64,000 nucleotides of DNA from Treponema vincentii (lineage in GTDB: Bacteria > Spirochaetota > Spirochaetia > Treponematales > Treponemataceae): the NCBI RefSeq assembly GCF_018336815.1, contig NZ_CP050497.1, forward strand, positions 806,001-870,000, written 5' to 3'. The notes under the pieces are model-generated. The model saw only the letters and a list, made by a program, of their open reading frames with translations. It searched no databases and was not told the DNA's origin. The translations under genes were made by a program, and so were the position numbers. Of this stretch, positions 5,287 to 63,396 are shown piece by piece (position 1 is the stretch's first letter; each line of letters starts with the position of its first letter).

Positions 5287-5315
5287 TTGACAGTTATCCA
5301 AATAGATAAGATAAT
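5287..5315 (+). promoter_or_regulatory. Sigma-70 promoter placed for a leaderless TPR-gene mRNA
   Basis: TTGACA (5287-5292), 17-base spacer, GATAAT (5310-5315). The expected transcription start is about 5322, three bases before the ATG at 5325, and no Shine-Dalgarno is present. Confidence 0.75.
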
Positions 5316-5324
5316 ACAAACAGT

Positions 5325-6659
5325 ATGTCTGTTGTAATTATCTCTCTTTTCATCATTATCGCAGTTGTTGCGGTCGTAACGGTTGTTATGACGGGGTTCA
5401 AAGGCCGCGGAACGTTATCGATCGGCAAAAAAAACAAGGCTGCAGTGATACGCGAGGCAACGAAACGGCTTGCGCAAAATCCGAATGACAGCGCCGCACT
5501 TTTAATGGTCGGAGATATATACTTTCAGGATCAAGACTGGGAAAAAGCCTATGCTTCTTATGCGCCGCTGTTGGATCAGATGGGCGGGCGTGTTCCATCG
5601 GAGCAATTTGAAATCAGCTTACGGTACGGTATCAGCGCACTGAAAACAGACCGGTTTGTAGAGGCGAAGAAAGGGCTTTTACTGGCAAAAAATATCAATC
5701 CCAACCATTTCGAGATAAACTATAATCTCGGATATATTTACTATATTCAAAAAGAATATGAAAAAGCGGTTCCGTTTTTGCGGAAAGCGCTACTCACTCA
5801 GCCCGATAACGTGATGGCGTTAAAGTATCTTGGTTATACACTCCAAAGTTTACGCAAATATCAAGAGGCGCTCCCCAGCTTAAAAAAAGTATTGGATGTT
5901 CAGCCTGATAATAAAGATGCGCTTTTTGCGATGGGGGAGTGTTTTTATGAAGTCGGCTCAAATGATCAGGCGTTAAAGATATTCACTCATTTGCGGGTAT
6001 CCCCCGAAGTGGGGCCGCGTGCTGCGCTCTATGCGGGTTTAATACGGATGCGTGCAGGTCAATTAGAGAAGGCAATTGAAGATTTTGAAATCGGCCTAAA
6101 GCATGACGGCATCCCGTTGGATATTATGAATGAGCTGCGCTATAATTTAGCCGCTGCGCGGATTAAAACGCAGGATTTACAAAAAGCGCTGATTCAATTA
6201 AAAGAAATTCAGACCGTCAGTCCGGGGTATAAAGATGTCGCTTCTCTTATCATGCGGTATCAGGAATTAAATCAGAATAAAAACCTTCATACCTATTTAA
6301 TGTCGGGGCAAAGTGAATTTGTCGGATTATGCCGCAGAATCGTTTCACGATTTTTTCCGAATGCTAAGGTCAAAATACTTGATATTAGTGTTCTTGCAAC
6401 CTATACCGATATCGTTGCTGAAATTGATACGCCTAAATGGGCGGATCTTGTAATATTCCGATTTTTCCGTTCCCAAGGTTCGGTCGGTGAACTGGTACTG
6501 CGCGACTTCCACGGGAGAATTAAGGAGATGAAGGCGGGGAAGGGAATCTGTATGACTGCCGGTACCTTTACGGAAGAAGCCCGCCGCTTTACCGAAGGCC
6601 GCCCGCTGGATCTCTTTGATAAGAACCGCTTGAACAAAGTCTTAAACGCAATCGGGTAG
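5325..6659 (+). CDS. Membrane-anchored TPR protein
   Basis: 444 residues. An N-terminal transmembrane anchor (residues about 2-23) is followed by a short basic segment and then a tetratricopeptide array from about 35 to 310, with the characteristic A/Y/L/P spacing (for example NYNLGYIYYIQKEYEKAVPF and ALFAMGECFYEVGSNDQALK). A non-TPR C-terminal domain of about 130 residues ends near NRLNKVLNAIG. A scaffold role in the cell envelope is likely but not demonstrable; I do not recognise a specific family. The start is fixed by the promoter only a few bases upstream. A small hairpin (GTGCGC/GCGCAC, 6690-6706) lies after the stop. Confidence 0.85.
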   Translation: MSVVIISLFIIIAVVAVVTVVMTGFKGRGTLSIGKKNKAAVIREATKRLAQNPNDSAALLMVGDIYFQDQDWEKAYASYAPLLDQMGGRVPSEQFEISLRYGISALKTDRFVEAKKGLLLAKNINPNHFEINYNLGYIYYIQKEYEKAVPFLRKALLTQPDNVMALKYLGYTLQSLRKYQEALPSLKKVLDVQPDNKDALFAMGECFYEVGSNDQALKIFTHLRVSPEVGPRAALYAGLIRMRAGQLEKAIEDFEIGLKHDGIPLDIMNELRYNLAAARIKTQDLQKALIQLKEIQTVSPGYKDVASLIMRYQELNQNKNLHTYLMSGQSEFVGLCRRIVSRFFPNAKVKILDISVLATYTDIVAEIDTPKWADLVIFRFFRSQGSVGELVLRDFHGRIKEMKAGKGICMTAGTFTEEARRFTEGRPLDLFDKNRLNKVLNAIG

Positions 6660-6790
6660 TTTTCAAGACAAAAAACTGTCGCTTGATGTGTGCGCTTTTC
6701 GCGCACGAATGCAACAGTTTCAAAAATTCATATTTTGTTCAACAGTTGCATTTTACGGAAACAAAACTTCGCACATTTTTTCTAACAGGT

Positions 6791-7146
6791 GCTAAACGCA
6801 TTAGACAGATTAGATAAAAATCGCAGAAAAATTGAGGCTGATGGTTAAAAATAATTTTTGCGTTAGCCTTTTGAAAAGAGGTGAGGCAGATACGAGGCAT
6901 GAACAAAAATTACCCACAGGCGTGCTTTTTGCACGTCGAGGACTAATTTTTGTGAAATAACGAAGTAGATACCCGCATATTTTCAAAAGGAAAGGTTGAG
7001 CAGCCACAATCATTCTGCGGGGAACACGAACATTGTACTTCCTTGTACAATGTTCGTGTCAAGTTTTTCTAGCAAAAAACTTGCTGCTGATTAGTATCAC
7101 CGCCATCCGTGGCGGATATGAAAAAATAAGGCCTAATGCGTTTACC
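6791..7146. repeat. Large palindromic intergenic element, family A copy 1 (with nested modules)
   Basis: The outer ends GCTAAACGCATTAG (6791-6804) and CTAATGCGTTTACC (7133-7146) are inverted repeats shared with four other loci in the window. Inside are TCGCAGAAAAAT and ATTCTGCGGGG arms, a TTGAGCAGCC motif, a nested inverted pair CCTTTTGAAAA/TTTTCAAAAGG (about 6869-6991) and a second palindrome ACACGAACATTGTAC/TTGTACAATGTTCGTGT (about 7023-7059). It has no credible coding frame. Together with 6660-6790 (hairpin and an imperfect GTGCGAA-type module) it fills the 480-base gap. The right end supplies the stop codon of murJ. Confidence 0.75.
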
Positions 7147-8728
7147 GCCGCCGTATTTTTTGTACGGCAGTCTTTAACAAAGAATCTCCCGTTATGATGA
7201 GCAGTGTTAAAATGATCAGTGCAAAAAGCGCGGCGCTGATAAAGAGCGGAAGTCCCTGTGCGATAATGCGGGGGTATGCCGCTAACGGATCGTAGAGCCA
7301 TTCGCCGAAAAAATACAGCGGGGCGGCGGCAATCAGCGAAAAAAGCAGCATCTTAACGGTAAAACCGGTTGCCGATACAAGCAATGTACGCACATCGATT
7401 GAATCGCTTTTGGTAAGAAAATACAGCAGAAGACCGGTATTAACGGCGCTCGCAACGGTCAGTGCCAACGCAATACCGCCGCCTTGCATAAAACCTGCCA
7501 GAGCCGCCGCAAGCACAATATTGATTCCGAAACACGCAATACCTGCAATCGTGGGACGTTTGGTATCGCTTTGTGCATAAAAAGCCGAGGTTAAAATCCT
7601 GTTTAATGCGATAAAGAACAACCCTGCGATATGCCACTGAAAGGCTTGCAAGGTGAGCCGGACAGACTCCTCGGTAAAGCGTCGGCTCTTATACACCAAA
7701 ATGATGATATGTTCGCCCGAACAGAGCAGGAAAATCGTTGCAGGGACGGTTACGAGCGCAATAATCTTTGCGGCATTCAACAGCAGTTTTTGAAAGACTT
7801 CCCATTGCTTATTAACCGCATGGGCTGAAAGGTCGGGCAGAATAACCGTGCCGACGGAAACGGCGAAGATGCCGAGAATCAGCTCTTGTAAACGGATTGA
7901 ATACTGCAAACTTGCCGCAACCCCGACTCCGGAGTATGTCGCGAGCGCTGTAGAAACGAGGTCGTTAATCTGATACACCGCCGTTCCGATAAGCGTTGGC
8001 ACAATCAGCCGTAGTATTTTCCGCGCTCCGGCATTATGTACACAGCGCCGGAACGGTATCAGCCTAAACGAAAAGCCTGCGCGCAGTACAAAGGGGAGCT
8101 GAAATAGCATTTGGCAGGAGCCGCCGATTACCACGCCGATCGCCATTGCAAGAGCCGGATTGCCGCAGGGCTTTGCGAGTACAAAGGTACAGCCGATAAC
8201 GGACAGGTTAAACAAAATCGGCGTAATTCCCGTCGGTAAGAAGCTGCGGACGCCGTTCAATATCCCCTGAAAGAATGCCGCAATGGAGATGAGCAGTAGG
8301 TACGGAAACATGATGCGCGTTAAGAGTACCGTTGCGGAAAAATCGGCGATTTTCGGAAAAAACACCGCAATAATCAGACCGCTGCACAAAATCCCGATGA
8401 TGACGGTACCCGTTACGGCAAAAGACAGCATGGTGAACGTTGCGGAAAGGAACTCCTTCATCGCCGCCTTTGCATCCGGCACATTGCGCTTCTCATCCTC
8501 CAGATAGGTTTGGAAAGTAGGAATAAACGCAACGGTCATGCTGTTTTCGGCAAAGATGCGCCTAAGTAGATTGGGAATCATAAAGGCAACGGTAAAGGCG
8601 TCCGCGAGGGGGCCGGTGCCGAGGAAGGCTGATTTGGTCATTTCCCGTATCAGCCCTAACACCCGCGACATGAGGGTGAGTACGGACAGGCTAATACCGC
8701 TTTTCAGTAAAGATGATGTTCGTTTCAT
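7142..8728 (-). CDS. murJ: Lipid II flippase MurJ (MviN)
   Basis: MurJ moves lipid-linked peptidoglycan precursor across the inner membrane. The 528-residue protein has about 14 hydrophobic helices. N-terminal SLLKSGISLSVLTLMSRVLG and LGTGPLADAFTVAFMIPNLLRRIFAEN are close to the MviN/MurJ signature, and several conserved Arg/Lys in TM helices line the presumed central cavity. The ATG at 8728 has no clear Shine-Dalgarno; a CATATA box lies 6 bases before it, but a good -35 is absent. Its last codons and stop lie within the end of a palindromic repeat. It follows pheS on the same strand with a 120-base gap containing imperfect direct repeats of GTATCAGGG. Confidence 0.95.
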   Translation of the reverse strand: MKRTSSLLKSGISLSVLTLMSRVLGLIREMTKSAFLGTGPLADAFTVAFMIPNLLRRIFAENSMTVAFIPTFQTYLEDEKRNVPDAKAAMKEFLSATFTMLSFAVTGTVIIGILCSGLIIAVFFPKIADFSATVLLTRIMFPYLLLISIAAFFQGILNGVRSFLPTGITPILFNLSVIGCTFVLAKPCGNPALAMAIGVVIGGSCQMLFQLPFVLRAGFSFRLIPFRRCVHNAGARKILRLIVPTLIGTAVYQINDLVSTALATYSGVGVAASLQYSIRLQELILGIFAVSVGTVILPDLSAHAVNKQWEVFQKLLLNAAKIIALVTVPATIFLLCSGEHIIILVYKSRRFTEESVRLTLQAFQWHIAGLFFIALNRILTSAFYAQSDTKRPTIAGIACFGINIVLAAALAGFMQGGGIALALTVASAVNTGLLLYFLTKSDSIDVRTLLVSATGFTVKMLLFSLIAAAPLYFFGEWLYDPLAAYPRIIAQGLPLFISAALFALIILTLLIITGDSLLKTAVQKIRRR

Positions 8729-8848
8729 ATATGCTATATGCGATCGGTAGGGGGCGCCTGTGTATCAGGGGACTTGAGCATCCGAGTATCAGGGTACCTG
8801 AATGCCTGTGCCCTTGAGTATCCAGCAGTTGCTTACTGATACAGCAGT

Positions 8849-10396: not shown

Positions 10397-10607
10397 AACG
10401 GCTTCCCCCTTTTTTTCATAAAACGGCTAAAATGATACCTCATTTAACGATTTTAGTGAATAGGACGAGTGAGGTTTGCAAAGCAGATGGAGAAACGCTT
10501 AGATAATTTTTAATTGTGGATTTATGATGTGAATTATCGAAATCATACGTTGAGCATTTTCAGAATCGAAAATCGGCTTTTGTACCGCGCAGTCCTGTGG
10601 TCAAAAG

Positions 10608-10636
10608 TTGCATTTATTTATAAAAAAGGGTATTAT
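10608..10636 (+). promoter_or_regulatory. Sigma-70 promoter giving a leaderless tyrS mRNA
   Basis: TTGCAT (10608-10613), exactly 17 bases, TATTAT (10631-10636), then CCGGTT and the ATG at 10643. The predicted +1 is at or within a base or two of the start codon. Confidence 0.75.
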
Positions 10637-10642
10637 CCGGTT

Positions 10643-11872
10643 ATGAATAGAGCTTTACAGACGTTAATAGACCGTGGATTTTTTCAGCAATGCACTGATG
10701 TGGAAGCGCTATCCGCGTTAATGGATAAAGGACCGGTTACGTTTTACACCGGTACCGACCCAACCGGCGGCAGTTTGCATATCGGGCACCTCGTACCTCA
10801 ATTTGCAGTTCGGCATTTACGTGATGCGGGGCATATCGGTATTGCGCTGCTCGGCGGCGGTACGGGACGCATCGGCGACCCTTCGGGGAAGACTGAGATG
10901 CGCAAAATGCTGGATTATCAGCAGCTTGATGAAAATGTTGAAAAGATAAAAGCACAGCTCGACCGCTTTATCGGTTTTGACGGGAAAACCGCCTTTCCCG
11001 AAAATAATAAAAACTGGCTGGCTGATTTAAACTATATCGATTTTCTGAGAGACATCGGTTCCTGTTTTTCGGTCAACAAGATGCTTTCGTTTGAGGCATA
11101 TAAAATACGGATGGAAACGGGTTTGTCTTTCCTCGAATTTAACTATCAGCTGTTACAAAGTTACGACTTTTTAATGCTGCATCAAAAACATCACTGCTGT
11201 CTGCAAATAGGGGGAGACGATCAGTGGGGCAATATCGTTGCAGGGGTCGATTTAGTTCGCCGCAAGACCGGTGATGAGGTGTTCGGGCTGACTTTCCCCC
11301 TCATTACCCGCAGCGACGGTAAAAAAATGGGAAAGAGCGAAAAAGGCGCACTCTTCCTAAACAAAGAGATGACCCCCGTGTTCGACTTTTTCCAGTATTG
11401 GCGAAATGTTGACGACGCCGACGTGCGCCGTTTTATGCTGCTGTTTACCTTTTTGCCGATTGAAGAGATTGACCGTATCTGCGCCGGCAATATCAATGAG
11501 GCGAAAGAGCGGCTTGCATGGGAAGTTACCAAAGAGATACACGGGAAAGATGAAGCAGATATGGCGCTTGCCGGTGCTAAAGCTGCATTCGGCGGCGGCG
11601 GCGATAAAAGCGCAATGCCGACCGTAGAAATGAACCGTACCGTTTTTGAGCAGGGGATTTCGATTGTCGATTTATATGTGCAAAGCGGTTTATGCGCCAC
11701 CAAGAGCGATGCCCGCCGTTTAATAGAGCAGGGCGGGGCGCTTGTTGCAGGTGAATCGGTTACTGACTTTAAGGCGGTCATTACCGCCACCGCCTTGGAT
11801 GAAACAGGAGAACTCATTCTCCGTGCCGGAAAGAAGCGGTTTAGCCGTATCGTTACCCGCTCAGTTTGTTAA
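10643..11872 (+). CDS. tyrS: Tyrosyl-tRNA synthetase
   Basis: Class I synthetase charging tRNA-Tyr, 409 residues. The catalytic domain carries HIGH as LHIGHL (about residue 45) and the KMSKS loop as KKMGKSEKG. The tyrosine-binding loop region FNYQLLQSYDF and IGGDDQWGNI match bacterial TyrS. The C-terminal S4-like RNA-binding domain is seen as LCATKSDARRLIEQGGALV. An upstream in-frame extension is open to 10514, but the promoter -10 at 10631 places the start at 10643, which also matches the family N-terminus. A terminator follows. Confidence 0.96.
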   Translation: MNRALQTLIDRGFFQQCTDVEALSALMDKGPVTFYTGTDPTGGSLHIGHLVPQFAVRHLRDAGHIGIALLGGGTGRIGDPSGKTEMRKMLDYQQLDENVEKIKAQLDRFIGFDGKTAFPENNKNWLADLNYIDFLRDIGSCFSVNKMLSFEAYKIRMETGLSFLEFNYQLLQSYDFLMLHQKHHCCLQIGGDDQWGNIVAGVDLVRRKTGDEVFGLTFPLITRSDGKKMGKSEKGALFLNKEMTPVFDFFQYWRNVDDADVRRFMLLFTFLPIEEIDRICAGNINEAKERLAWEVTKEIHGKDEADMALAGAKAAFGGGGDKSAMPTVEMNRTVFEQGISIVDLYVQSGLCATKSDARRLIEQGGALVAGESVTDFKAVITATALDETGELILRAGKKRFSRIVTRSVC

Positions 11873-11880
11873 TATGCGAA

Positions 11881-12449: not shown

Positions 12450-15206
12450 CTATATTAGTTTTGCAATTTTGCTGTAGAGACTATTAACCGCGGCTGTTTG
12501 CGCTTCATCCAATCCTGCACCGGCGCTGTCGATGAGCTGCTGCAGGGAAGCAAGGTTTTCGTGCAATGCAGTGTGAAAGCCGCGTGAAGTTTTCAGCCAG
12601 AAAGTACCGTTGCCGTCGTTGAACAGGGTGATAAAGCCGAGCTGCTTGCTCTTCTGCTTTGCCGCTACCGTGCGGAAGATAAGCGGCAGCTGCTCCAACA
12701 GGGCTGTGGTGTCATCCGGCAGCGTAAAGTTCTTGGTGCGTGGAAAAGGCGTTTCCGAATCAAGAGGTTGCAGCGGAAAGGCTTTGGCAATGCTTAATAC
12801 CAAGCCGAACTTTTCTCCGGCGAGTAGCTCATAGCTGCCGAAGGTGATTTTTGCTCGCAGGTTTTTGAGTTGTTCCAGCCGACCGTCATATATAATGCTG
12901 CCAGAGACTTCCATCGAAGCATCGCCTTGCATATTCCAATCGGTATTCGGCTTGCCGGATCCTTGCAGCTGCCGCTCCACCCGCAGCTGCTCCACCGTAT
13001 GCCTGAACTGCTCCCACGGCAGTAAAAGCTGCTTTTTCCCTTTCATCTTTTGTACGATATACGGGGTGCCACAGATGGATACTGTTTGCAGCTGTTTTTC
13101 AGCTGCGGTACCGACACTGCCGGTTCCTTTTCTGCCTGCGCTTTCCGATGCTGCTGCGGAGTCGTGTGGCACACCTCTTCCTGCACTGCCGGAGAGCTTT
13201 CCGACCGCACCGGCTCCCAGTGCGTTTTTACTGCCGCCTTTGCCGCTGCCTTTTCCAGTTCCGCTTGCGGCTCTATCAGTCTTACCGCTACCGGCTTTTG
13301 CCCGCGTTTGCTGTGCTGCTTTTTTGTCGAGGAGCGCAGGGGCAACAAGAGCTACAATGTCTTTGGAAAGGGGTGAAACCGACATAGCATACATCCGTGA
13401 CGTACGCACAATCTCCCCCGCAACGATAAAGGGCTGATGCTCCTTATACATACAGGAACCCGGATGGATGGAAATCTTTTCGGTGGTAAGGCTGCGATAT
13501 ACGTCCCGCCCCTGTGCAGCGCACACAAATTGAATCATACCGCGGGCAACCGCCGTCAGATAATCCGCCGGTTTTCCGCCGGAGAGAATCGGCACGCCCA
13601 TATCGGAGACAATCAGCTCCAACTGCTCCTTGATATTGGCAATTTCCGCCATAATCCGCTCGTCGAGGTAAAAGCGTTCACAAAAGCGCTTTTGGTTTTC
13701 CGCTTGCATGTACTGCCGATAGACCTTGAGGAAGGACACAAAGTCTCCAAGCGGATCGCGGAATGCTGCATGGGCTTTTCTCGCTTCAAGCTCATGCCCG
13801 TCGGGGAAGAGGAAGGGACTGCGTGCCGATAAAAAGCCCGCGGCAATCAATACATCCTCAATCGATTCGGGATAATAGAGTACCGCCTCTACAATCATAC
13901 GGGATTGACGCGGGCTGAGCGGGAAGAGGCACATCATCTGCCCGATTTTACTCAGGCTGTTATCAGGTTCCAACGCGCCAAGCATATTGAGCGTATCTAC
14001 CGCACCGATAATGCCCTTCTTGCCGGGAGGGGAAATAAAATCGAAGTTCGCAAAGTCGTAGATCCCCAGCTCCGCCATCCGCATCACCACCTCCGAAAGA
14101 TCAGTGCGGTAGATTTCCTCCGTGGTGTACATAACGCGGGTTTCAAAATCCTTGCGGGTGTAGAGGCGGTAACATACCCCCTCCTGCGTCCGTCCCGCGC
14201 GTCCCCGCCGCTGATTACACGATGCCTTCGACACCGGCGCTTCGTCCAAGCTCGACGTGTAGGTAAAGGGATTATAAAAATTGAGCTTCGATAAGCCTGA
14301 GTCGATAACGGCGGCAATATCGTTGATGGTGATAGAGGTTTCGGCAATGTTCGTTGCGATAACAATCTTCTTTTTCCCGAACGGCGGGGACTTGAACACC
14401 CGTTCCTGCTCTTCCTTGCTCAAGCGCCCGTACAGCGGCAGCGGGTAGAGCTTGCGGAACCATGACTCATGCGAGAGCCGCTCGATGCAGTCTTTAATCG
14501 CCCGCTCGCCGGGAAGAAACACGAGGATGGCTCCGGGGCGCCCCTCGCTTAAAATCCGCCCGACAATCACCGCAATTTTATCGAGTAATGCTGTTTCCGC
14601 AGCGAGCGTCTCTGTGGAGGCGGTGATGGCAGGCGGGTCAAAGATGAGGGTAACCGGATAGGTCATCGCATCGATTTTAATCACCGGACATTCGTTAAAA
14701 TACATCGAAAACATATCGGTATTGATAGTCGCCGATGAGATAATCACCTTAAAATCCTGCCGCTCCTGTAAAATCCGCTTGAGCAGCCCGAGTATAAAAT
14801 CGATATTCAAACTGCGCTCGTGCGCTTCATCTACCATAATAACGGAATACTTGCTGAGCCATGGGTCAAGTTTAAGCTCCTGCAAGAGTATACCGTCAGT
14901 CATTATCTTTATCTTTGTGTTCGGCGAGGTATGGTCTTCGAACCGCATCTTGTAGCCCACTGCATCGCCGAGCGGAACCTTCAGTTGATGTGCAATAAAT
15001 TCGCTTACCGAAAGCGCTGCAATCCGCCGCGGCTGGGTAACCCCGATCATGCCGGTTTGCGTATAGCCCGCCTCATGTAAAATAACCGGCAACTGGGTAG
15101 TCTTACCCGATCCGGTAGGGCTTTCAACGACAATAACCTGATGCCGATCCAAACTCTCTAAAATCCGTGCCTTTTGTTCATAAACAGGCAGCTGTGTATA
15201 TTTCAT
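12450..15206 (-). CDS. hrpA: HrpA-like DEAH-box ATP-dependent helicase
   Basis: 918 residues from the ATG at 15206. It carries Walker A ESPTGSGKTT, the DEAH box in VDEAHERSLNID, SATIN, IATNIAETS and QRRGRAGR, followed by HA2-type winged and ratchet domains and a C-terminal OB-like region. The N-terminal 26-residue start MKYTQLPVYEQKARIL is typical of the family. Unusually, a Gly/Ser/Ala/Lys-rich low-complexity stretch (about residues 630-695) splits the C-terminal part. It probably acts as an RNA helicase in RNA processing or ribosome biology. Its promoter lies 10 bases upstream with no ribosome site, so the mRNA should have almost no leader. Confidence 0.9.
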   Translation of the reverse strand: MKYTQLPVYEQKARILESLDRHQVIVVESPTGSGKTTQLPVILHEAGYTQTGMIGVTQPRRIAALSVSEFIAHQLKVPLGDAVGYKMRFEDHTSPNTKIKIMTDGILLQELKLDPWLSKYSVIMVDEAHERSLNIDFILGLLKRILQERQDFKVIISSATINTDMFSMYFNECPVIKIDAMTYPVTLIFDPPAITASTETLAAETALLDKIAVIVGRILSEGRPGAILVFLPGERAIKDCIERLSHESWFRKLYPLPLYGRLSKEEQERVFKSPPFGKKKIVIATNIAETSITINDIAAVIDSGLSKLNFYNPFTYTSSLDEAPVSKASCNQRRGRAGRTQEGVCYRLYTRKDFETRVMYTTEEIYRTDLSEVVMRMAELGIYDFANFDFISPPGKKGIIGAVDTLNMLGALEPDNSLSKIGQMMCLFPLSPRQSRMIVEAVLYYPESIEDVLIAAGFLSARSPFLFPDGHELEARKAHAAFRDPLGDFVSFLKVYRQYMQAENQKRFCERFYLDERIMAEIANIKEQLELIVSDMGVPILSGGKPADYLTAVARGMIQFVCAAQGRDVYRSLTTEKISIHPGSCMYKEHQPFIVAGEIVRTSRMYAMSVSPLSKDIVALVAPALLDKKAAQQTRAKAGSGKTDRAASGTGKGSGKGGSKNALGAGAVGKLSGSAGRGVPHDSAAASESAGRKGTGSVGTAAEKQLQTVSICGTPYIVQKMKGKKQLLLPWEQFRHTVEQLRVERQLQGSGKPNTDWNMQGDASMEVSGSIIYDGRLEQLKNLRAKITFGSYELLAGEKFGLVLSIAKAFPLQPLDSETPFPRTKNFTLPDDTTALLEQLPLIFRTVAAKQKSKQLGFITLFNDGNGTFWLKTSRGFHTALHENLASLQQLIDSAGAGLDEAQTAAVNSLYSKIAKLI

Positions 15207-15216
15207 AATCGGGAAA

Positions 15217-15245
15217 AGTATAGCGCAGTTGTTATTTGTGTGCAA
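15217..15245 (-). promoter_or_regulatory. Sigma-70 promoter of the helicase gene (near-leaderless)
   Basis: On the minus strand: TTGCAC (15240-15245), 17 bases, TATACT (15217-15222), then 10 bases to the ATG at 15206. It overlaps the end of murA by about two bases. Confidence 0.7.
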
Positions 15246-26704: not shown

Positions 26705-28375
<1,671 letters not shown>

Positions 28376-30328: not shown

Positions 30329-30491
30329 ATATCAGGGCGACTGAATCGGACGCACTTTTATATTTCTCCGCGTTAAACAACTGTCCTTTAGGGAGATTAT
30401 AGTATGGTTATCCGTCTTTCTTAAAAAGCATAAAATTTAAAAAAATTGTGCGCAAAAAGAAGATAGGCTGGTCTTTTCTTGCTCTTTCGGT

Positions 30492-30497
30492 TATACT
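30492..30497 (+). promoter_or_regulatory. -10 box TATACT placed 6 bases before a start codon
   Basis: TATACT then AAATAC then ATG at 30504, with no Shine-Dalgarno. The -35 position (30469-30474, TGGTCT) is poor, so this is a weaker member of the leaderless set. Confidence 0.5.
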
Positions 30498-30503
30498 AAA
30501 TAC

Positions 30504-31028
30504 ATGGAAGCCATAGATATTTTAAAGCCGCTTTTGGAAAAAGGACTGTTAAAGGAAAGCCTTACTTTGGCAGAAAGCGAAGGTAAGGAACTAAGCAAAA
30601 TCAGCCATGATGGGCTTAATTTTGTAACAGCTTCTATATTAGCTGATGTACCCTCTGTTGAAAAAACCGAATTGATTAGAAAAACCGGAGCTTTCTTCTC
30701 TGCCGAGGATTATTGTAATCTATTAAATGAAAAGGTGTTTACTATTCACCCCGTAACCCGCGATCGGTTAAAAGATCAGGGGGCGTTGTTAACCGATGAA
30801 AATGTGAAGCAATACTATGCATGGTATAATATTTTTGATATTGCCTTCCCGTGGCTTCCATTATCGGTATTTGAAGATTTGGTAGTTTATCTACGGGATG
30901 AAAAGAGGTTGGTTTTAGATAAGGAAACACGAGAACTGGTAAAAGAAAATTTTTTAAATTCCAAACGATATTCCGAACGGGAGTTAAACACTCTATTCGA
31001 ATCACCTATTTTTGATAACGAATTTTAA
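30504..31028 (+). CDS. Hypothetical protein, 174 residues
   Basis: A soluble, largely helical protein starting MEAIDILKPLLEKGLLKESL. It has no signal peptide, membrane helix or recognised motif. A repeated pattern of L-x2-L and acidic residues and the segment YYAWYNIFDIAFPWLPL are notable. The predicted mRNA begins at or near the ATG. It is followed by a short GC-rich hairpin and is convergent with pta. I make no functional assignment. Confidence 0.7.
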   Translation: MEAIDILKPLLEKGLLKESLTLAESEGKELSKISHDGLNFVTASILADVPSVEKTELIRKTGAFFSAEDYCNLLNEKVFTIHPVTRDRLKDQGALLTDENVKQYYAWYNIFDIAFPWLPLSVFEDLVVYLRDEKRLVLDKETRELVKENFLNSKRYSERELNTLFESPIFDNEF

Positions 31029-32263: not shown

Positions 32264-32292
32264 TTGACCAAGGAGAGCTTTTTTCGTACATT
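32264..32292 (+). promoter_or_regulatory. Promoter of trxB (predicted leaderless)
   Basis: TTGACC (32264-32269), 17 bases, TACATT (32287-32292). The ATG at 32299 is 6 bases beyond the -10; an in-frame ATG at 32293 abuts the -10 and would not be transcribed. An AGGAG at 32271 sits in the promoter spacer and cannot act as ribosome site for this transcript. Confidence 0.65.
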
Positions 32293-32298
32293 ATGATA

Positions 32299-33225
32299 AT
32301 GAATACAAATTATGATATTATCGTTATCGGCGCAGGCGCGGCGGGTATGGCTGCGGCGCAATATGCGTGCCGAGCAAACTTAAAAGTATTGGTACTGGAA
32401 GAAAAAGCGCCGGGCGGACAGGTTGTTTTAATCGATTCGCTTGAAAATTATCCCGGATATGCCGAACCGATAAACGGCTTTGAATTTGCTGAAAATATGC
32501 GTAAACAGGCGGCAGGCTTCGGCGCCGAATTTGCTTCCGATAAGGTAGAAGCTGTTACAAAAAACGGAGATAAAACCTTTACCGTACAAACCACGGATAA
32601 AACCTACACGACGCTTGCAGTTATTCTTGCGACGGGAGCAGAGCACCGCAGCCTTGGCGTAAAGGGCGAAAAAGAGCTGCAAGGTAAAGGCGTTTCGTAC
32701 TGCGCTACCTGCGACGGTCCCTTCTTTAGAAATAAGCATATCGTTGTGGTCGGTGGAGGGGATGCCGCTTGTGATGAAGCGCTCTTTCTTGCCAATTTGA
32801 CTGATACAGTTACGATGGTACACCGCCGCGATACCTTCCGCGCGCAAAAGGCGCTCGTTACCCGAACATTGAACAATCCTCATATAACGGCGGTATTCGA
32901 TACGACCGTTACGGAAATAAAGGGAACCGATAAGGTAACCGCCGTTGTACTGCGGAACGTAAAAACGCAGGAAGAGCGGGAACTTGTCTGTGATGCAGTT
33001 TTCTTTTTTGTCGGTATGAATCCTAAAACGGAGCTATTTCCCGACGCAACGAAAGATGCAACGGGCTATATCGTTACCGATGAGGATATGCGTACTTCTA
33101 TCGAAGGACTCTACGCGGCGGGCGATGTGCGCGCGAAGTCTTTCCGGCAGGTGGTTACCGCAGTTTCCGACGGCGCTATTGCCGCCCATACCGCTGCAGC
33201 CTATATCGAAAATCTCCATAGTTAA
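32299..33225 (+). CDS. trxB: Thioredoxin reductase
   Basis: The FAD/NADPH enzyme that reduces thioredoxin, 308 residues from ATG 32299. It has FAD-binding GAGAAGMAAAQYA, the redox-active CATC (in YCATCDGPFF), NADPH-binding GGGDAACDEALFLA and the C-terminal FAD motif GLYAAGDVRAK. The start choice rests on the promoter position. The next gene begins 6 bases after the stop with a TTG codon, so the two are probably co-transcribed. It is important for oxidative and nucleotide metabolism in an organism without glutathione, but that role is inference. Confidence 0.95.
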   Translation: MNTNYDIIVIGAGAAGMAAAQYACRANLKVLVLEEKAPGGQVVLIDSLENYPGYAEPINGFEFAENMRKQAAGFGAEFASDKVEAVTKNGDKTFTVQTTDKTYTTLAVILATGAEHRSLGVKGEKELQGKGVSYCATCDGPFFRNKHIVVVGGGDAACDEALFLANLTDTVTMVHRRDTFRAQKALVTRTLNNPHITAVFDTTVTEIKGTDKVTAVVLRNVKTQEERELVCDAVFFFVGMNPKTELFPDATKDATGYIVTDEDMRTSIEGLYAAGDVRAKSFRQVVTAVSDGAIAAHTAAAYIENLHS

Positions 33226-40170: not shown

Positions 40171-40989
40171 TTAGAGATAGGTTTTACGTTGTTGGTTAAA
40201 GTATTGAGTTAATCGTATTTTATAAGCAAGCGGCACCGTCGAGGGAGTATACGTCATCGCAACTGCAATCAGGTCTTTCCGTTTTTCTACCAACTCTGCT
40301 CTGATAATTTTACCGCGCAATCCGACAATGACGGTAGGATCATCAAAGTCGAACTTCAGCACACAGTCTTTATTGAGCAGAAACGGAGCAATCCCTGCCA
40401 TAATAAACTTTGCGCCGGAAAACGAAATATCTCGCACGATGCAACGCCTAGGAATGTTTTCGATGTAAACAATTGTTTCTTTTTTTGTCAGCGACAGTTT
40501 CCGCATCGCCTCCGCGTTTAACTCGATACGTTCATCTCCGCGCTTAGTTGTATTTGCTTTTGCATCGACAAGGAGCCCCAGCTTTTCAATTAAGTCGTCG
40601 GGAGCGCGTTGTGTATATTCGATATTAAGCAGGAGTAAATCGGGGGTTACCGTATATGGTGTGCAGCTTACCACTTTCCCTGAAACAAAGAACGAAAGAT
40701 CACTTTTCCCATTTGTTTGAGAAAAGGAAAACCACAGAGAAACCGCCGTAGAACCTTCGCATATTTTTTCATATATTCCGCAATGCTGCGGTACGATTAC
40801 CTTTGCTCCTATCATCGAAGAAGAGTTGATGACGCACGGCCACGGTCCTCCTTCGGCGCCAACACAGCGTATTGATGATTGCTGCGCATTAAGATTCATT
40901 GCTTGAATAACTTCTTTTGTAAAAGTTATTTCCGCTTTTTGGAAAAAATCGTAATACCTATTAACCTGTTGACTCGTCAGGAAACCCAT
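40171..40989 (-). CDS. PilZ-domain protein, probable cyclic-di-GMP receptor
   Basis: 272 residues. The C-terminal PilZ domain (about residues 150-265) carries the R/K-rich start TTKRGDERIEL and the (D/N)xSxxG element DISFSGAKF that bind cyclic-di-GMP in the family. The N-terminal 140 residues form a second, YcgR_2/PilZN-like beta domain (SSSMIGAKVIVPQHCG). Such two-domain proteins regulate motility or attachment. The ATG at 40989 lies 7 bases after a TATTAT -10 box with TTGACC at -35, so the mRNA is predicted leaderless. It stands alone before the TPR gene with a 51-base gap. Confidence 0.85.
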   Translation of the reverse strand: MGFLTSQQVNRYYDFFQKAEITFTKEVIQAMNLNAQQSSIRCVGAEGGPWPCVINSSSMIGAKVIVPQHCGIYEKICEGSTAVSLWFSFSQTNGKSDLSFFVSGKVVSCTPYTVTPDLLLLNIEYTQRAPDDLIEKLGLLVDAKANTTKRGDERIELNAEAMRKLSLTKKETIVYIENIPRRCIVRDISFSGAKFIMAGIAPFLLNKDCVLKFDFDDPTVIVGLRGKIIRAELVEKRKDLIAVAMTYTPSTVPLAYKIRLTQYFNQQRKTYL

Positions 40990-40996
40990 AGCAGTA

Positions 40997-41025
40997 ATAA
41001 TAAGTTTATTTTATTAAAAGGTCAA
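40997..41025 (-). promoter_or_regulatory. Sigma-70 promoter giving a leaderless PilZ-gene mRNA
   Basis: Minus strand: TTGACC (41020-41025), 17 bases, TATTAT (40997-41002), 7 bases to ATG at 40989. Confidence 0.75.
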
Positions 41026-46169: not shown

Positions 46170-46198
46170 TTGTTTAAAATGCAATTTTGATTTACTAT
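46170..46198 (+). promoter_or_regulatory. Sigma-70 promoter giving a leaderless murC mRNA
   Basis: TTGTTT (46170-46175), exactly 17 bases, TACTAT (46193-46198), 7 bases to ATG at 46206. No Shine-Dalgarno is present. Confidence 0.7.
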
Positions 46199-46205
46199 AG
46201 CGCCT

Positions 46206-47657
46206 ATGATTACAACCCGTTTGCCGGAAAATCTCTCCGGTTATCATATACACATGATCGGTATTAAAGGAACCGGCATGGCGGCCTTAGCGGAGCTGCT
46301 TGTTTCGCGGGGCGCGATTCTGAGCGGCAGTGATGTCAGCGATGAATTTTATACCGATGCGTTGCTGCGTAAGCTGAACATACCGGTCAGCACTCCTTTT
46401 GCGCCTTCAAACATTCCCGCTTCCACCAAGCTTATCATATATTCAACGGCGTACGCGCCTGACAAAAACCCTGAGCTATATGCCGCTGTGGAAAAAAATA
46501 TCCCGCGTATGAGCTATCCCGAAGCGTTGGGCGCTTTTTCTCAACACAGTTATTCGGCAGGTATCGCAGGCGTGCACGGCAAAACGACAACTACCGGTAT
46601 TGCAGGAACGTTGTTAAAGGATTTAAACTTGAGCGCCTCAGTATTGGCGGGGAGCGCCGTGTCCAACTTCGGCGGCGGATGCACGGTTATCAACGGTTCA
46701 AAGTATTTTGTCGCCGAAACCTGCGAATATAAACGCAACTTTTTGTTTTTTCATCCTCAAAAAATCGTACTTACCAGCATCGAAAGCGATCATCAAGATT
46801 ACTATCCTCAATACGAAGACATATTGACTGCCTTCTTACAGTACATCGACCGCCTGCCTCAGTTCAACGAATTGATTTATTGCTCAGACGATGCAGGAGC
46901 GCGGGAGGCAGCAAAGCTCACGTTTTCTTCCCGTCCCGATCTTGTCTTAACCCCTTACGGCAAAACAGCGCACGGCGACTACGGGATTAAAACTCTCGGT
47001 ATCAAAAACGGGCAGTCGGTCTTTTCTCTGCGCGGCTTCGGCGGAGAATTCCGCATCGGTATTCCGGGAGAGCACAGCGTCCTCAATGCAACTGCCGCAA
47101 TCGCGCTGGTAATCGGGCTTATCAAACAGGAGCGAAATGAGGTTACCGCCGCCGATCTCACCGCAATCAGAAACAGTCTTGCTTCATTTAAGGGGGCAAA
47201 ACGGCGCAGCGAAATTTTAGGCGAAGTAAACGGCATCCTGTTTATGGACGATTACGGACACCACCCCACCGCAATTTATAAAACGCTCAAGGGCATCCAC
47301 GAGTTTTATCCCAAACGGCGCATCATCGCGGACTTTATGTCGCATACCTATTCGCGCACCGCAGCGCTGCTTCCGGAATTTGCAAATGCTTTTTCCTACG
47401 CCGATACGGTTATCCTGCATAAGATATACGCTTCCGCACGGGAAAAATACAACGGTTCGACAAACGGCAGGACTTTGTACGAACAAATGAAAAAGCGGCA
47501 TAAACGAATTCATTATTTTGAAGAGATTATGGATGCAAAGGATTTTGTAGAACACGAGCTGCGCCCGAACGATTTGTTCATCACCGTTGGGGCAGGCGAC
47601 AATTGGAAGCTCGGCCGCGCCGTTTATAACGACTTACTCGCAAAGGCACACGTATGA
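46206..47657 (+). CDS. murC: UDP-N-acetylmuramate--L-alanine ligase MurC
   Basis: It adds L-Ala to UDP-MurNAc. 483 residues: N-terminal Rossmann GIKGTGMAALAELL, ATP-binding GVHGKTTTTG (about residue 120), central MDDYGHHPTAI and DFMSHTYSRTAAL. These Mur ligase motifs and the DDYGHHP sequence fit MurC better than MurD-F; the related Mpl recycling ligase is a less likely alternative. It heads a tight operon murC-yicC-cmk-like-mutY-like with 4-base overlap to yicC. Its promoter lies immediately upstream, so the start codon is close to the 5' end. Confidence 0.88.
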   Translation: MITTRLPENLSGYHIHMIGIKGTGMAALAELLVSRGAILSGSDVSDEFYTDALLRKLNIPVSTPFAPSNIPASTKLIIYSTAYAPDKNPELYAAVEKNIPRMSYPEALGAFSQHSYSAGIAGVHGKTTTTGIAGTLLKDLNLSASVLAGSAVSNFGGGCTVINGSKYFVAETCEYKRNFLFFHPQKIVLTSIESDHQDYYPQYEDILTAFLQYIDRLPQFNELIYCSDDAGAREAAKLTFSSRPDLVLTPYGKTAHGDYGIKTLGIKNGQSVFSLRGFGGEFRIGIPGEHSVLNATAAIALVIGLIKQERNEVTAADLTAIRNSLASFKGAKRRSEILGEVNGILFMDDYGHHPTAIYKTLKGIHEFYPKRRIIADFMSHTYSRTAALLPEFANAFSYADTVILHKIYASAREKYNGSTNGRTLYEQMKKRHKRIHYFEEIMDAKDFVEHELRPNDLFITVGAGDNWKLGRAVYNDLLAKAHV

Positions 47658-56789: not shown

Positions 56790-56816
56790 TTCTTTTTATA
56801 ATATTTAACTTCTTGT

Positions 56817-58282: not shown

Positions 58283-59862
58283 AAATTATTTTTATTACCG
58301 GTGTGTCCGGAACGATGGGATCCGAAGCATTAAAACAGATTGCTCAAACGGGAGCATTCCGGTGCCGTGTTCTATTACGACCTAAAAAGGCGAATATAAA
58401 GCTGGCAAAAAAGCTTCAAAAAAACGAAAACATTGAAGTGTTGTTCGGTGATATACAAAACTACGAAGACTGCCTTGCCGGCGTAAAAGATGCAGATTAT
58501 GTGCTTCACTGCGCAGCGATTATTCCTCCGGCAGCCGACCACAATCATGATGCTGCATTCCGTACGAATTGGCTGGGGACTCAAAATCTGCTTAATGCTG
58601 TGGTAGAAAACGGACAAATCGAAAAGACCAAATTCGTTTACATAGGCACCGTTGCGGAATACGGTAATAGAACATTCAAACACCCGTGGGGACGAGTCGG
58701 CGATCCGCTTCTGCCGAGTGCATTTGATATGTATGCGGCAAGCAAAGTAAAGGCTGAGCGTGCGGTTATTGAATCCCCTTTATGCTGGGTTTCGCTGCGG
58801 CAAAGCGGTATCTTATATGACGAAGTGCTTTTCAATAATATGAATGATGGGTTGATGTTTCATACGTGCTGGAATACGCCGATAGAATGGGCAACGGCGC
58901 GTACCTCCGGTCTGCTTCTGAAAAATCTCGTTGAAAAAGATACAAACGGAACGCTCAGGTCTGATTTTTGGAAAAAGGTATACAATATCGGAAACGGAAA
59001 GGATGCCCGTGTTACCGGCTTTGAAACACTTGACCGCGGTTTTAAAATGATGGGACGGAGCGCCGAGGAAATTTTCCGCCCCGAATGGAATGCAAGCCGC
59101 AATTTCCATTGTATGTGGTTTGCCGATTCTCATATATTAAACAGCTATCTGGATTTCCAGCATGAGGGGTTTGAAGCGTTTTTTTCAAAGCTTGAAAAAA
59201 AATTATGGTATTTTAAATTGGGAAAACCGTTCCCGCGCCTTGTTCAGCGTTTTTCCATTATGCCGCTACTGAACACAAATAATGCTCCGGTCTTCTGGGT
59301 TACGCACAACCTCAAAAAAAGAGTTGATGCCTTTTTCGGATCGCCGGAAGCGTATAACGCAATCCCGCGCAGCTGGAAAAAATTTCCGTTATTGTGCAAA
59401 AATCAAAACCCTGAAACCGGTGCTGAGTTAGATTACGCGGCATTAAAAGACGAAGCATTGCTTGCAGCAAACAATATGCTTTTAAATCACGGTTATGATG
59501 AAACAAAGAAGCCGGATGAACTTGATATTGAAGATATGCAGCAGGCAGCGGCTTTCCGGGGCGGCAAGTGCAATAGTACAACGATGACCCGCGGCGATAT
59601 GTACCGCCCGCTGCAATGGCAGTGCCATAATGGTCATCATTTTTCGGCGACGCCGTATTTGGTGCTTAAAACAGGGCATTGGTGTCCCGAATGCTGCAGC
59701 GTACCGCCGTGGAATTTCGGAGAGCTTGCAAAGCACATTCCGTTTTATGCGCAAGTATGGTACGACGACCACACGGCTGATGAAACGGAATCGTATTCAG
59801 CAGAGGATGCCCGCGATATATTCGCCTACGAAGCAGGTTCCTCTAATACACAAAGGGGATGA
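58279..59862 (+). CDS. NAD-dependent epimerase/dehydratase with C-terminal zinc-ribbon-like domain
   Basis: 527 residues. The Rossmann N-terminus (IIFITGVSGTMGSEALKQI) is an extended SDR, with LHCAAIIPP and the YxxxK-type site in DMYAASKVKAERAV, residues about 155-162. A long middle region (about 250-420) is unassigned. The last 110 residues have CHNGHHFSATPYLVL and HWCPECC, a CxxxH...CxxC zinc-ribbon-like arrangement as in DUF4379-type domains. This fusion is unusual; substrate unknown. The ATG at 58279 overlaps the MATE stop, so they form one operon. The end overlaps the convergent steroid-reductase-like gene by 20 bases. Confidence 0.75.
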   Translation: MKIIFITGVSGTMGSEALKQIAQTGAFRCRVLLRPKKANIKLAKKLQKNENIEVLFGDIQNYEDCLAGVKDADYVLHCAAIIPPAADHNHDAAFRTNWLGTQNLLNAVVENGQIEKTKFVYIGTVAEYGNRTFKHPWGRVGDPLLPSAFDMYAASKVKAERAVIESPLCWVSLRQSGILYDEVLFNNMNDGLMFHTCWNTPIEWATARTSGLLLKNLVEKDTNGTLRSDFWKKVYNIGNGKDARVTGFETLDRGFKMMGRSAEEIFRPEWNASRNFHCMWFADSHILNSYLDFQHEGFEAFFSKLEKKLWYFKLGKPFPRLVQRFSIMPLLNTNNAPVFWVTHNLKKRVDAFFGSPEAYNAIPRSWKKFPLLCKNQNPETGAELDYAALKDEALLAANNMLLNHGYDETKKPDELDIEDMQQAAAFRGGKCNSTTMTRGDMYRPLQWQCHNGHHFSATPYLVLKTGHWCPECCSVPPWNFGELAKHIPFYAQVWYDDHTADETESYSAEDARDIFAYEAGSSNTQRG

Positions 59863-60610
59863 TACGCTTCGGTTTATAGCGGGCAAATTCATCGGGGAAG
59901 TCTTGCGCATATTTTTTATACAAGGCATGAGAGCGCGGTACCAAGTTGCAAGCCGTCCAAAATAAAAACAGGAAACCGGCGGATGACCATGTTAAAACGG
60001 CGAAGCCGAGCCATTCCACCAATTCACCGAAGTAGTTTGCGCTGGTAACGTAGCGGTACATTCCCTTACACGGATAGTAGTGCTTGCTGTCTCCATTTGA
60101 TCTCAGCGAACGGATATAGGAATCGGATTGTATATTGATAAACATACCGGCACAAAATAAAATTGCGCCGAGGATAAAACGGGGATCGGCAAACCAGCGC
60201 ACGTTATACATCTCTGCAGGAGAAAAATAAAAAATCCATAAACCGATTAAAAACGCATTGATCGTATTAAAGAGCATCCCCATTGATACTATGCTGAGCG
60301 GCATTTTACTGTTTCCCTTGAGCAGCATCGGGAAAATCAGCGTGCGTTGAATATAGTGGGCAAGGAAGAAAGACACAAGCACTATCCGCACCGGTTTGTG
60401 TGCATAGTCGAGTACGGACAGTAAAGAAATCATAACGATAAGAGTTGGACACTCCATCAGCATCCATGCAGCTTTATTGTTAAAACTGAAGCCCCATTTT
60501 TTATCGATCAGCTTTCCGTACCCCGCAGGAATAAAATACAAGGCAAAAAAGCATATCAATCCCAAAACGAGCATGACAATTTCAACAGTACAATATACAG
60601 AATATAACAT
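59843..60610 (-). CDS. 3-oxo-5-alpha-steroid 4-dehydrogenase family membrane enzyme
   Basis: 255 residues from ATG 60610, with six to seven hydrophobic segments. The C-terminal half has the family pattern CKGMYRYVTSANYFGELVEWLGFA, TACNLVPRSHALYKKYAQDF and RYKPKRIIPFVY (in part). It matches SRD5A-type NADPH steroid 5-alpha-reductases; a homologue has been reported in the oral T. denticola. A longer in-frame start at a TTG (60646) would lie inside the promoter and is not used. The promoter gives a nearly leaderless mRNA. Convergent overlap with the epimerase gene. Confidence 0.85.
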   Translation of the reverse strand: MLYSVYCTVEIVMLVLGLICFFALYFIPAGYGKLIDKKWGFSFNNKAAWMLMECPTLIVMISLLSVLDYAHKPVRIVLVSFFLAHYIQRTLIFPMLLKGNSKMPLSIVSMGMLFNTINAFLIGLWIFYFSPAEMYNVRWFADPRFILGAILFCAGMFINIQSDSYIRSLRSNGDSKHYYPCKGMYRYVTSANYFGELVEWLGFAVLTWSSAGFLFLFWTACNLVPRSHALYKKYAQDFPDEFARYKPKRIIPFVY

Positions 60611-60617
60611 GCACAAC

Positions 60618-60646
60618 AGTATCACCGCTTTTCTTCTTTTAATCAA
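60618..60646 (-). promoter_or_regulatory. Sigma-70 promoter of the steroid-reductase-like gene (leaderless)
   Basis: Minus strand: TTGATT (60641-60646), exactly 17 bases, GATACT (60618-60623), 7 bases to ATG at 60610. Confidence 0.7.
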
Positions 60647-60764
60647 CTATCCCTCGACACAGCGGGTTGGAAAATGCTACTTTCCGCACGAATCAAGTAC
60701 CGGTATGAAGGGTTGACAGGCAGCATAAATACTCGTAGCTTACTTAAAAAGGCTAAATGAGAGT

Positions 60765-61418: not shown

Positions 61419-61469
61419 AATTATAAAAAAGGGGAAAGTTGGGTAGGCTGATTGGTTTTACGATCTCGT

Positions 61470-62240
61470 TTATAATAGAGCCGTTCCCAGCCGTTGTTTT
61501 ATTTTTTCATTGGTAGGGCGGACATCGTAATACGCTGCTTTGAAGGTAACCGTGCGGGCGGTGGTATCCCATAGCGCAAAATATGCAGGGAAATGCGTTT
61601 TATCGGCAAGCGATTTCGCCCTGTCCTCAGCTGCGCCTAATACGCGCGGAAAGCCTACGCTGCCCGGATTGACGATACAGCAATCTTTATCGAGTGTTAC
61701 CGTTTGCTCCGGTTCGGGGTATAATGCATTGTAGTATCCCCGATCGATGTAGAAAACGGCAGCTTGGTGCGTGTGTCCGCAAAAGCAGAGTTTAAAGCCT
61801 TCTGCACACAGGTACCGGAGCGATACCGCTGTTTCTTGTCCGCCGTGCAGATATTCGGTGACGGGTTCCAACGGCGACCCATGCACAAGCAGTGTCTTTT
61901 CGGATAAAAAATAGAGAGGACGTAATCGTGCTAAAAAGAATCGGCTTTTCCACGAGATAAGCGATGCAGTCTTTTTGAGCGAACGGCGGGCATTCTCGCT
62001 GAACCAGTCGGACGGAAGCCTTTTAAGCAATCCTTCTTCGTGATTACCTGTCAGAAGAATGCACGGCTGGATATGTTTTTTTAATCCTTTTACTTGCTGA
62101 ATGCATCCCTCGGGATCGGGACCGTAGCCGACCATATCGCCAAGCGAGATAAAGCCGTCGTACTGTCCCTTGACGGAATCCAGTACAGCGTTGAGTGCTT
62201 CCATGTTTGCATGGATATCTGCCGTTACCACTATTTTCAT
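61470..62240 (-). CDS. Calcineurin-like metallophosphoesterase
   Basis: 256 residues. The di-metal motifs are in order: TADIHANMEAL (D-x-H), SLGDMVGYGPDPE (GD), TGNHEEGLL (GNHE), HGSPLEP and CGHTHQ (GHxH). This fits the YfcE/MJ0936-like single-domain family, which hydrolyse phosphodiesters or nucleotides; the substrate is unknown. ATG 62240; the start is only 24 bases from the divergent gene at 62265. A -10-like TATGAT and a TTGTAA give a leader of only about 7 bases. It is not in an operon. Confidence 0.88.
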   Translation of the reverse strand: MKIVVTADIHANMEALNAVLDSVKGQYDGFISLGDMVGYGPDPEGCIQQVKGLKKHIQPCILLTGNHEEGLLKRLPSDWFSENARRSLKKTASLISWKSRFFLARLRPLYFLSEKTLLVHGSPLEPVTEYLHGGQETAVSLRYLCAEGFKLCFCGHTHQAAVFYIDRGYYNALYPEPEQTVTLDKDCCIVNPGSVGFPRVLGAAEDRAKSLADKTHFPAYFALWDTTARTVTFKAAYYDVRPTNEKIKQRLGTALL

Positions 62241-62264
62241 ATTGAGAGGAATATATCATACCGT

Positions 62265-62843
62265 ATGCCGGAAAAACTTACAACAAGACTTTTGAATAAC
62301 CTCCGGGATAGCTTTCAATCCGATTGGAAATTGCTTTCCGAAACGGAGCATTTTCTTGCGTCTACCCCTTTGCAGCAGAACTATGAGCAGCAATTTGCCG
62401 TATGGCGTAAACGGCTGCAAACAGGGAAAAATGATGCGGTACGCGCATCGGTACGGGAAGACCTTATCGCATTGAGGAAAGCGCTGCGTTTGGAAGGGTA
62501 TGATTTATCTCTCGGAGCAATTCAGCTTATTGTAAAAGATTTTGTGAACGATGATGCGGCGGCTCGCGGTTTCCGGCGGGTTGTGATTTGCTTTTGCGAT
62601 GCAGGATTGTTTTGGCTGTCGGGAGAAGCTAATCACCTTGAACTTGGCAGTGATCTACAGGCCGAGTTGGAACGTAAGCAACTGTATGTTCATCCCGAGA
62701 TGCATTATCTTTGGTTCCTGTGGGAGCGGAACGCCTTACTGTTAAGCGGTTCCGCAACCGAAACAAAAGAAGCTTTTGAGCGTCTGCAAAAACGTGCCTA
62801 CGCCAATCCTCAAAAAATATTGCGGTACCTGAAAGCGTTATAA
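62265..62843 (+). CDS. Hypothetical protein, 192 residues
   Basis: Starts MPEKLTTRLLNNLRDSFQSD. The N-terminal half is helical and basic, and the second half contains GAIQLIVKDFVNDDAAARGF and a Trp/Leu-rich LYVHPEMHYLWFLWERNALL. It has no signal peptide, transmembrane helix or recognised fold. A TATCAT at 62254-62259 ends 5 bases before the ATG, without a good -35, so it may also be leaderless. It is divergent from the phosphoesterase gene. I do not assign a function. Confidence 0.65.
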   Translation: MPEKLTTRLLNNLRDSFQSDWKLLSETEHFLASTPLQQNYEQQFAVWRKRLQTGKNDAVRASVREDLIALRKALRLEGYDLSLGAIQLIVKDFVNDDAAARGFRRVVICFCDAGLFWLSGEANHLELGSDLQAELERKQLYVHPEMHYLWFLWERNALLLSGSATETKEAFERLQKRAYANPQKILRYLKAL

Positions 62844-62940
62844 TATCAGGGTTGCTTATCGTAAGACTAAATCGCTACACATCCTGTGCAGTGCATAAAA
62901 ACCAGCCTCGAACGGCGGTTTGCTTTATCAAAAAACCTGC

Positions 62941-62946
62941 TATAAT
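62941..62946 (+). promoter_or_regulatory. Extended -10 (TGC-TATAAT) 6 bases before a start
   Basis: TATAAT at 62941-62946 is preceded by TGC (extended -10), then ACCGGT and ATG at 62953. Confidence 0.55.
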
Positions 62947-62952
62947 ACCGGT

Positions 62953-63396
62953 ATGAACATGACCTGCAAATTACCGATCGGTATACAGAGTTTTGAAAAG
63001 CTGCGGCAGGATGGTTACCTTTACATTGATAAAACACCGTTCATTTGGCATCTTATTCAATCATCCAGTCCTTTTTTCCTCAGCCGCCCGCGCCGGTTCG
63101 GTAAAAGCCTTTTTCTTTCAACTTTAGCGGCATACTTTTGCGGGCCAAAAGAGCTATTCAAGGGCTTGTACCTTGAAAAGGCGGAAGAAAAACAAGCTCT
63201 GCAAGAAGGTAGGAATGCATGGCAAGAATACCCCGTCCTCTATTTGGATTTTAATACAAAAAATTATATAGACCAGCAGGCTCTTGTAGATATTCTGAAT
63301 CAAAAGGGATACTCTTTATCCAAACCGCAATTTATGATACTATACCCGGATGGAGTACCAAGTAACTGCGACACGGCGCAGGCCTCAGCGATTTGA
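62953..63396 (+). pseudogene. Truncated AAA-ATPase-like/PD-(D/E)XK nuclease family remnant
   Basis: The first about 115 residues match the AAA-ATPase-like plus PDDEXK_9 family common in Treponema and Bacteroides: LPIGIQSFEKLRQDGYLYID, a P-loop-like RPRRFGKSLFLSTLAAYF, and YPVLYLDFN. The match stops after about QQALVDILNQ. The remaining tail is unrelated and overlaps the dnaX start. The normal family is over 500 residues. It looks like a remnant whose 3' part was lost, apparently cut at the dnaX promoter. Confidence 0.65.
63315..63343 (+). promoter_or_regulatory. Promoter of dnaX (predicted leaderless)
   Basis: TTTATC (63315-63320), 17 bases, TACTAT (63338-63343), 6 bases to ATG 63350. The -35 is weak. 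Confidence 0.55.

Follow-up and report, generated by a model that had tools for sequence, protein, structure and literature searches.

Promoter boxes close to start codons predict leaderless mRNAs in Treponema vincentii

Within a 64,000-nucleotide stretch of Treponema vincentii DNA, hereafter the window, the initial annotation described ten start codons lying so close behind a -10 box that their mRNAs would have little or no leader. Does this layout mark a second mode of translation initiation, and is the set unusually dense? Strand-wise re-reading and scoring located a -10-like box 6–10 bases 5′ of the ATG at all ten starts, as had been claimed (Table 1). The box fits TANNNT at eight sites, the exceptions being GATAAT at 5325 and GATACT at 60610. 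A -35-like hexamer at a best spacer of exactly 17 bases was found at each of the seven sites for which that spacing had been given (5325, 10643, 15206, 32299, 40989, 46206 and 60610), and the weaker -35 hexamers ascribed to 30504, 62953 and 63350 were also recovered; by a spacing test of the sigma-70 type, the best spacer was 17 at nine sites and 16 at one. Promoter scores, computed with a matrix of general consensus sequences unfitted to this genome, reached at least 7 at eight of the ten sites and were lower at 46206 (5.9) and 63350 (5.6). None of the ten starts has a Shine-Dalgarno (SD) motif (GGAG, GAGG, AGGA or AAGG, sought 5–16 bases upstream), in agreement with the annotation, an absence that is in part mechanical, since a box at 6–10 bases leaves scant room for one.

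Table 1 Start-proximal promoter-like elements in the window, written as -35 hexamer, spacer length and -10 hexamer.
Start (ATG)	Promoter-like element	Bases from box to ATG	Coordinates	Strand	Gene
5325	TTGACA-17-GATAAT	9	5287..5324	+	TPR + Mrr_cat domain protein, 5325-6659
10643	TTGCAT-17-TATTAT	6	10608..10642	+	tyrS, 10643-11872
15206	TTGCAC-17-TATACT	10	15207..15245	-	HrpA-like helicase, 12450-15206
30504	TGGTCT-17-TATACT (weak -35)	6	30469..30503	+	174 aa protein, 30504-31028
32299	TTGACC-17-TACATT	6	32264..32298	+	trxB, 32299-33225
40989	TTGACC-17-TATTAT	7	40990..41025	-	PilZN3/PilZ protein, plzA-like, 40171-40989
46206	TTGTTT-17-TACTAT	7	46170..46205	+	murC, 46206-47657; weak in own genome
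60610	TTGATT-17-GATACT	7	60611..60646	-	Steroid_dh family protein, 59843-60610
62953	TTTGCT-16-TATAAT (weak -35; TGC before -10)	6	62919..62952	+	AAA-ATPase_like ORF, 62953-63396
63350	TTTATC-17-TACTAT (weak -35)	6	63315..63349	+	dnaX start; gene exits window

We consider it very probable that these are ordinary sigma-70-like promoters giving leaderless or near-leaderless mRNAs, in a genome that also uses SD-led genes. In the leaderless mRNAs that have been studied, the 5′-terminal AUG is bound by a 70S ribosome carrying initiator tRNA. A housekeeping-type -10 box 6–10 bases from the ATG would lead RNA polymerase to begin on the A of the start codon or very few bases from it, the resulting mRNAs would be leaderless or nearly so and devoid of an SD, and, by analogy with the studied cases, the 70S ribosome and initiator tRNA would bind their 5′-terminal AUG directly. 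Where the -10 box lies 8–10 bases away, the first RNA base may fall 1–4 bases upstream of the ATG, leaving a tiny leader in some of the mRNAs. The actual RNA 5′ ends, and translation from a terminal AUG, are in this sense predictions from the DNA.

The PilZ-domain gene at 40989, whose product passes the Pfam cut-offs for PilZN3 and PilZ and matches PlzA below cut-off, was leaderless-type in 19 of 26 genomes (own genome included; 27 had been supplied and one without a start was dropped), among them all seven in the genus. Six order-level genomes that were scored 'none' have, by eye, TTGAC boxes with the -10 at 11–14 bases from the ATG. A protein-alignment scan covered the best 80 of 323 loci, all named spirochaete loci. 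Among these best 80, a proximal promoter with its -10 box 5–10 bases from the ATG and no SD was present in 73, the -10 box lay at 12 or 14 bases in two, and the remaining five had an SD and no nearby promoter. The 75 promoter-bearing loci from this set had a -35 beginning TTGAC (71) or TTGAT (four) and a spacer of 17 (64) or 18 bases (11), in a search that allowed 15–19 and favoured 17. The alternative that survives best is that a second, upstream promoter supplies a leadered mRNA at such genes, with the proximal promoter contributing little. When the profile was extended to 54 bases upstream of the same best 80 of 323 loci, however, only two sites beyond 14 bases scored at least 8. Moreover, since the SD is absent at the ten window starts and at the 73 PilZ loci, an mRNA with a longer leader would still be without the usual ribosome site. 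We therefore regard a dominant upstream promoter as improbable.

A further alternative to leaderless initiation is that AT-rich intergenic DNA yields TANNNT near ATGs by chance and that good examples were picked from it. The ten sites were indeed hand-picked, and among 519 in-frame ATGs in a 464-kb sample of the genome TANNNT with one more consensus match stood 6 bases away in 18 cases and 7 bases away in 22, while other distances gave counts of 4–18. TANNNT without the -35 was rejected as a criterion on this sample, as it separates too poorly. With the -35 scored, the scan covered the window and 40 stretches of 20 kb (864 kb of the 2.71-Mb single-contig genome), in which 694 genes were called by our own hexamer script, and 1005 in-frame ATGs were set against two controls, 752 out-of-frame ATGs of the same start zones and 3825 internal ATGs. 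At distances of 6, 7, 8 and 9 bases, sites scoring at least 7 numbered 20, 22, 8 and 9 before in-frame ATGs, against 1, 3, 1 and 2 before out-of-frame and 6, 9, 4 and 5 before internal ATGs. Across distances 6–10, such sites preceded 63/1005 in-frame versus 10/752 out-of-frame ATGs (p 8e-8), and at a score of at least 9 the figures were 34/1005 versus 1/752 (p 9e-8), although both classes of ATG come from the same regions; judged by the out-of-frame control, the layout is thus commoner than chance. At a control distance of 30–34 bases the same 1005 in-frame and 752 out-of-frame ATGs gave 22 versus 12 sites (score at least 7) and 11 versus 3 (at least 9), which may be promoters of leadered genes. 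After correction by the out-of-frame ATGs, the excess at 6–10 bases amounts to about 50 starts among 694 genes, or about 7% of genes. Leaderless initiation would accordingly be scaled to about 7% or more of the genes in this Treponema, and the share may exceed 7% because the scan misses weak promoters and starts deep inside a called ORF.

Further features bear on whether transcription begins at the ATG of the sampled starts. An SD motif precedes none of the 63 leaderless-type starts, where the box again leaves scant space for it. SD motifs precede 268/1005 in-frame versus 17/752 out-of-frame ATGs, and the two modes coexist, as the annotation stated. Searches for the anti-SD end of 16S rRNA gave no match in the genome with our own pattern and none in 397 loci with a shorter one; the SD excess before in-frame ATGs itself speaks for anti-SD use. 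The base preceding the ATG is a pyrimidine at 49/63 leaderless-type versus 169/268 SD starts (p 0.03), and at 321/752 out-of-frame ATGs. A same-strand upstream gene lies within 40 bases of 4/63 leaderless-type starts versus 69/268 SD starts. The first 40 coding bases of leaderless-type genes were no less folded than those of SD genes (p 0.32), which counts against the leaderless reading, and at a score of at least 7 no clear excess was seen in this genome before GTG (5/287 versus 5/332) or TTG starts (9/541 versus 13/1027).

The layout also extends to relatives. When 200 kb from each of four genomes were scanned, in-frame ATGs exceeded out-of-frame ATGs significantly in three: G028 (21/223 versus 2/180, p 0.0003), G010 (16/212 versus 2/134, p 0.01) and G005 (14/179 versus 2/123, p 0.02), the excess in G005 vanishing at a score of at least 9 (3 versus 2). 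In the fourth, G003 (GC 40%), no significant excess was found (7/198 versus 2/160, p 0.31). G005 also carries the layout before a GTG in its orthologues of 5325 and 40989.

For seven of the ten window genes, the sequence upstream of the start was set beside that of up to 30 relatives. The resulting tallies include the own genome, score each gene by the best among as many as three nearby starts, and cover genomes in which the N-terminus is complete, with some order-level loci omitted. Besides the PilZ gene, the TPR/Mrr gene at 5325 was leaderless-type in 18/21 genomes of the order (7/7 in the genus), and murC at 46206 had the strict layout in 22/25, the own genome being scored weak. The HrpA-like helicase gene was leaderless-type in 10/24 genomes. 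For tyrS the count was 11/27 (7/7 in the genus, 3/9 elsewhere in the family, 1/11 elsewhere in the order), with an SD in 12/27 genomes and in 12/20 outside the genus; for trxB it was 9/23 (7/7, 1/8 and 1/8), with an SD in 10/16 outside the genus. That tyrS and trxB are mostly SD-led outside the genus indicates that single genes switch initiation mode. The 174-aa gene at 30504 had the strict layout in 1/7 genomes (the own genome only) and a weak one in four more. The Steroid_dh gene at 60610 had the same box, 6 or 7 bases from the ATG, in 3/3 relatives found, and for dnaX the sequences compared included no relative with the gene start. A control gene at 26741-28375, presumably encoding GroEL from its length and N-terminus and sought in the same relatives, was SD-led in all 27 of 30 loci that had an N-terminus (25 scored, two judged by eye from a GGAG before the ATG) and leaderless-type in 0/25 scored loci.

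A less selected test used 46 leaderless-type starts (score at least 8) and 249 SD starts, with orthologues sought within the sampled stretches. The layout was kept in 13/14 close and 5/7 distant orthologues of leaderless-type genes, or in 10/10 and 5/6 once five rows from a false start at 46254 were removed, and it appeared in 1/32 close and 0/21 distant orthologues of SD genes. Retention by orthologues, together with the dependence on reading frame, makes chance very improbable as an account of the layout as a whole, although single weak sites such as 63350 and 30504 could have arisen in this way. Leaderless mRNAs, as the annotation predicted, are the best explanation of the in-frame spacing peak and of its conservation.

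A last possibility, that the promoters are real but translation begins at a downstream in-frame codon of an mRNA with a normal leader, is suggested by further in-frame starts near some genes and is most unlikely, given that the PilZ ATG stays 5–10 bases past the box in 73/80 loci (best 80 of 323) and that the tyrS, trxB and dnaX family models begin at or near the proposed Met. The products of tyrS, trxB, murC and dnaX reach NCBIfam family cut-offs (dnaX by TIGR02397), the models of tyrS, trxB and dnaX starting at that Met or no more than a few residues from it, and the helicase (12450-15206) matches HrpA below cut-off. The annotation had held that the layout corrects several start codons; for tyrS and trxB the proposed starts fit both family models and orthologues, and 'corrects' applies relative to the longest ORF only.

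The products are varied. The protein at 5325-6659 joins TPR repeats to a C-terminal Mrr_cat-like domain. The 174-aa protein (30504-31028) matched no Pfam or NCBIfam family and was present in 7/31 genomes searched, all of one genus. Beyond the window, 20 of the 31 strongest leaderless-type genes were compared with Pfam, and matches at 1e-12 were obtained for 13, including methionyl-tRNA synthetase, chorismate synthase, GGDEF, Fic, transporters and others; no single functional theme was seen in these. Of the sampled leaderless-type promoters other than those of the window, the one with the highest score lies 5′ of a gene for a GGDEF protein (diguanylate cyclase; L083:7162-8703); the gene resembling a PilZ c-di-GMP receptor is likewise leaderless-type. 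Copies of PF09820 (AAA-ATPase_like) in the genus (the window, L033, L046, L053 and L259) share TGCTATA(A/C/T)T, six bases and ATG. The pattern is present in four of five rows listed, with scores of 5.6–11.3, and missing from the remaining one, which comes from another spirochaete. These copies place an extended -10 and the leaderless layout on a multi-copy gene. The window copy (62953-63396) is short, with 147 aa covering positions 1-105 of the 201 in the profile, and its last 47 bases overlap the beginning of dnaX, which puts the dnaX promoter inside an apparently truncated gene.

The second part of the question, that of density, has a different answer. An automatic count found 7/49 window genes to be leaderless-type versus 56/645 elsewhere, the seven including a start at 46254 in murC. 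This start was rejected as an internal Met within a stretch that we take to be a conserved Mur motif. With it removed, the window was not unusual (6/49 versus 56/645, p 0.43), in a comparison for which false starts were weeded in the window only and left in among the 645 genes. The count missed 10643, whose called ORF begins 129 bases upstream, beyond the start zone, and 46206, which scores low; 62953 and 63350 were not called by the gene finder. The set of remarkable density described in the annotation hence matches its own genome.

Leptospira belongs to a different order from Treponema. The density had also been put forward as noteworthy for a spirochaete, a view that is not supported in the light of earlier reports of leaderless genes in this phylum (PMC3160421, PMC5243855, PMC10618245). 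In Leptospira interrogans, differential RNA-seq placed the starts of about 440 genes at most 10 bases from the ATG, about half of them less than 2 bases away, and the study describes no common promoter motif besides sigma-54 sites (PMC5243855); RNA ends were measured there, whereas those discussed here are predicted from DNA. Leaderless transcripts are called highly frequent in another spirochaete, Borrelia burgdorferi, in a remark within a paper on ribosome structure (PMC10618245). Zheng et al. 2011 recognised leaderless genes by a TANNNT box whose first T lies about 12 bp upstream of the start codon, and predicted them in 6/18 Spirochaetes genomes, at a mean of 3.9% (1.8–6.9), with Treponema absent from the main text (PMC3160421). 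The signal of their TA-led genes, as set out there, is the same as ours, which peaks at 6–7 bases from box to ATG; here a different method, which found a -35 spaced by 17 bases, gave about 7%, and the layout was followed through orthologues. Start sites have been predicted from the T. pallidum transcriptome in a paper whose main text lacks the word 'leader' (PMC12223175), and among the open-access matches listed no title concerned leaderless Treponema genes or a leaderless plzA. The initiation mode is thus already known, and the freshest part of these results is the order-wide, gene-by-gene conservation of a few genes, which did not appear among the matches listed.

Taken together, these analyses provide a clear DNA-level case of a Treponema in which leaderless initiation would serve a steady share of genes, and they fix start codons where longest-ORF calling goes too far upstream. 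More tentatively, and with less than even confidence on our part, selection might keep certain genes leaderless in Treponema and its relatives even as the sequences of promoter and spacing drift; PilZ (73/80, best of 323), murC (22/25) and TPR/Mrr (18/21) would then form an order-wide core, with tyrS, hrpA and trxB switching. If so, the output of the core genes could track the capacity of the ribosome for 70S initiation instead of the strength of an SD. The conserved examples are natural test genes for why leaderlessness persists.
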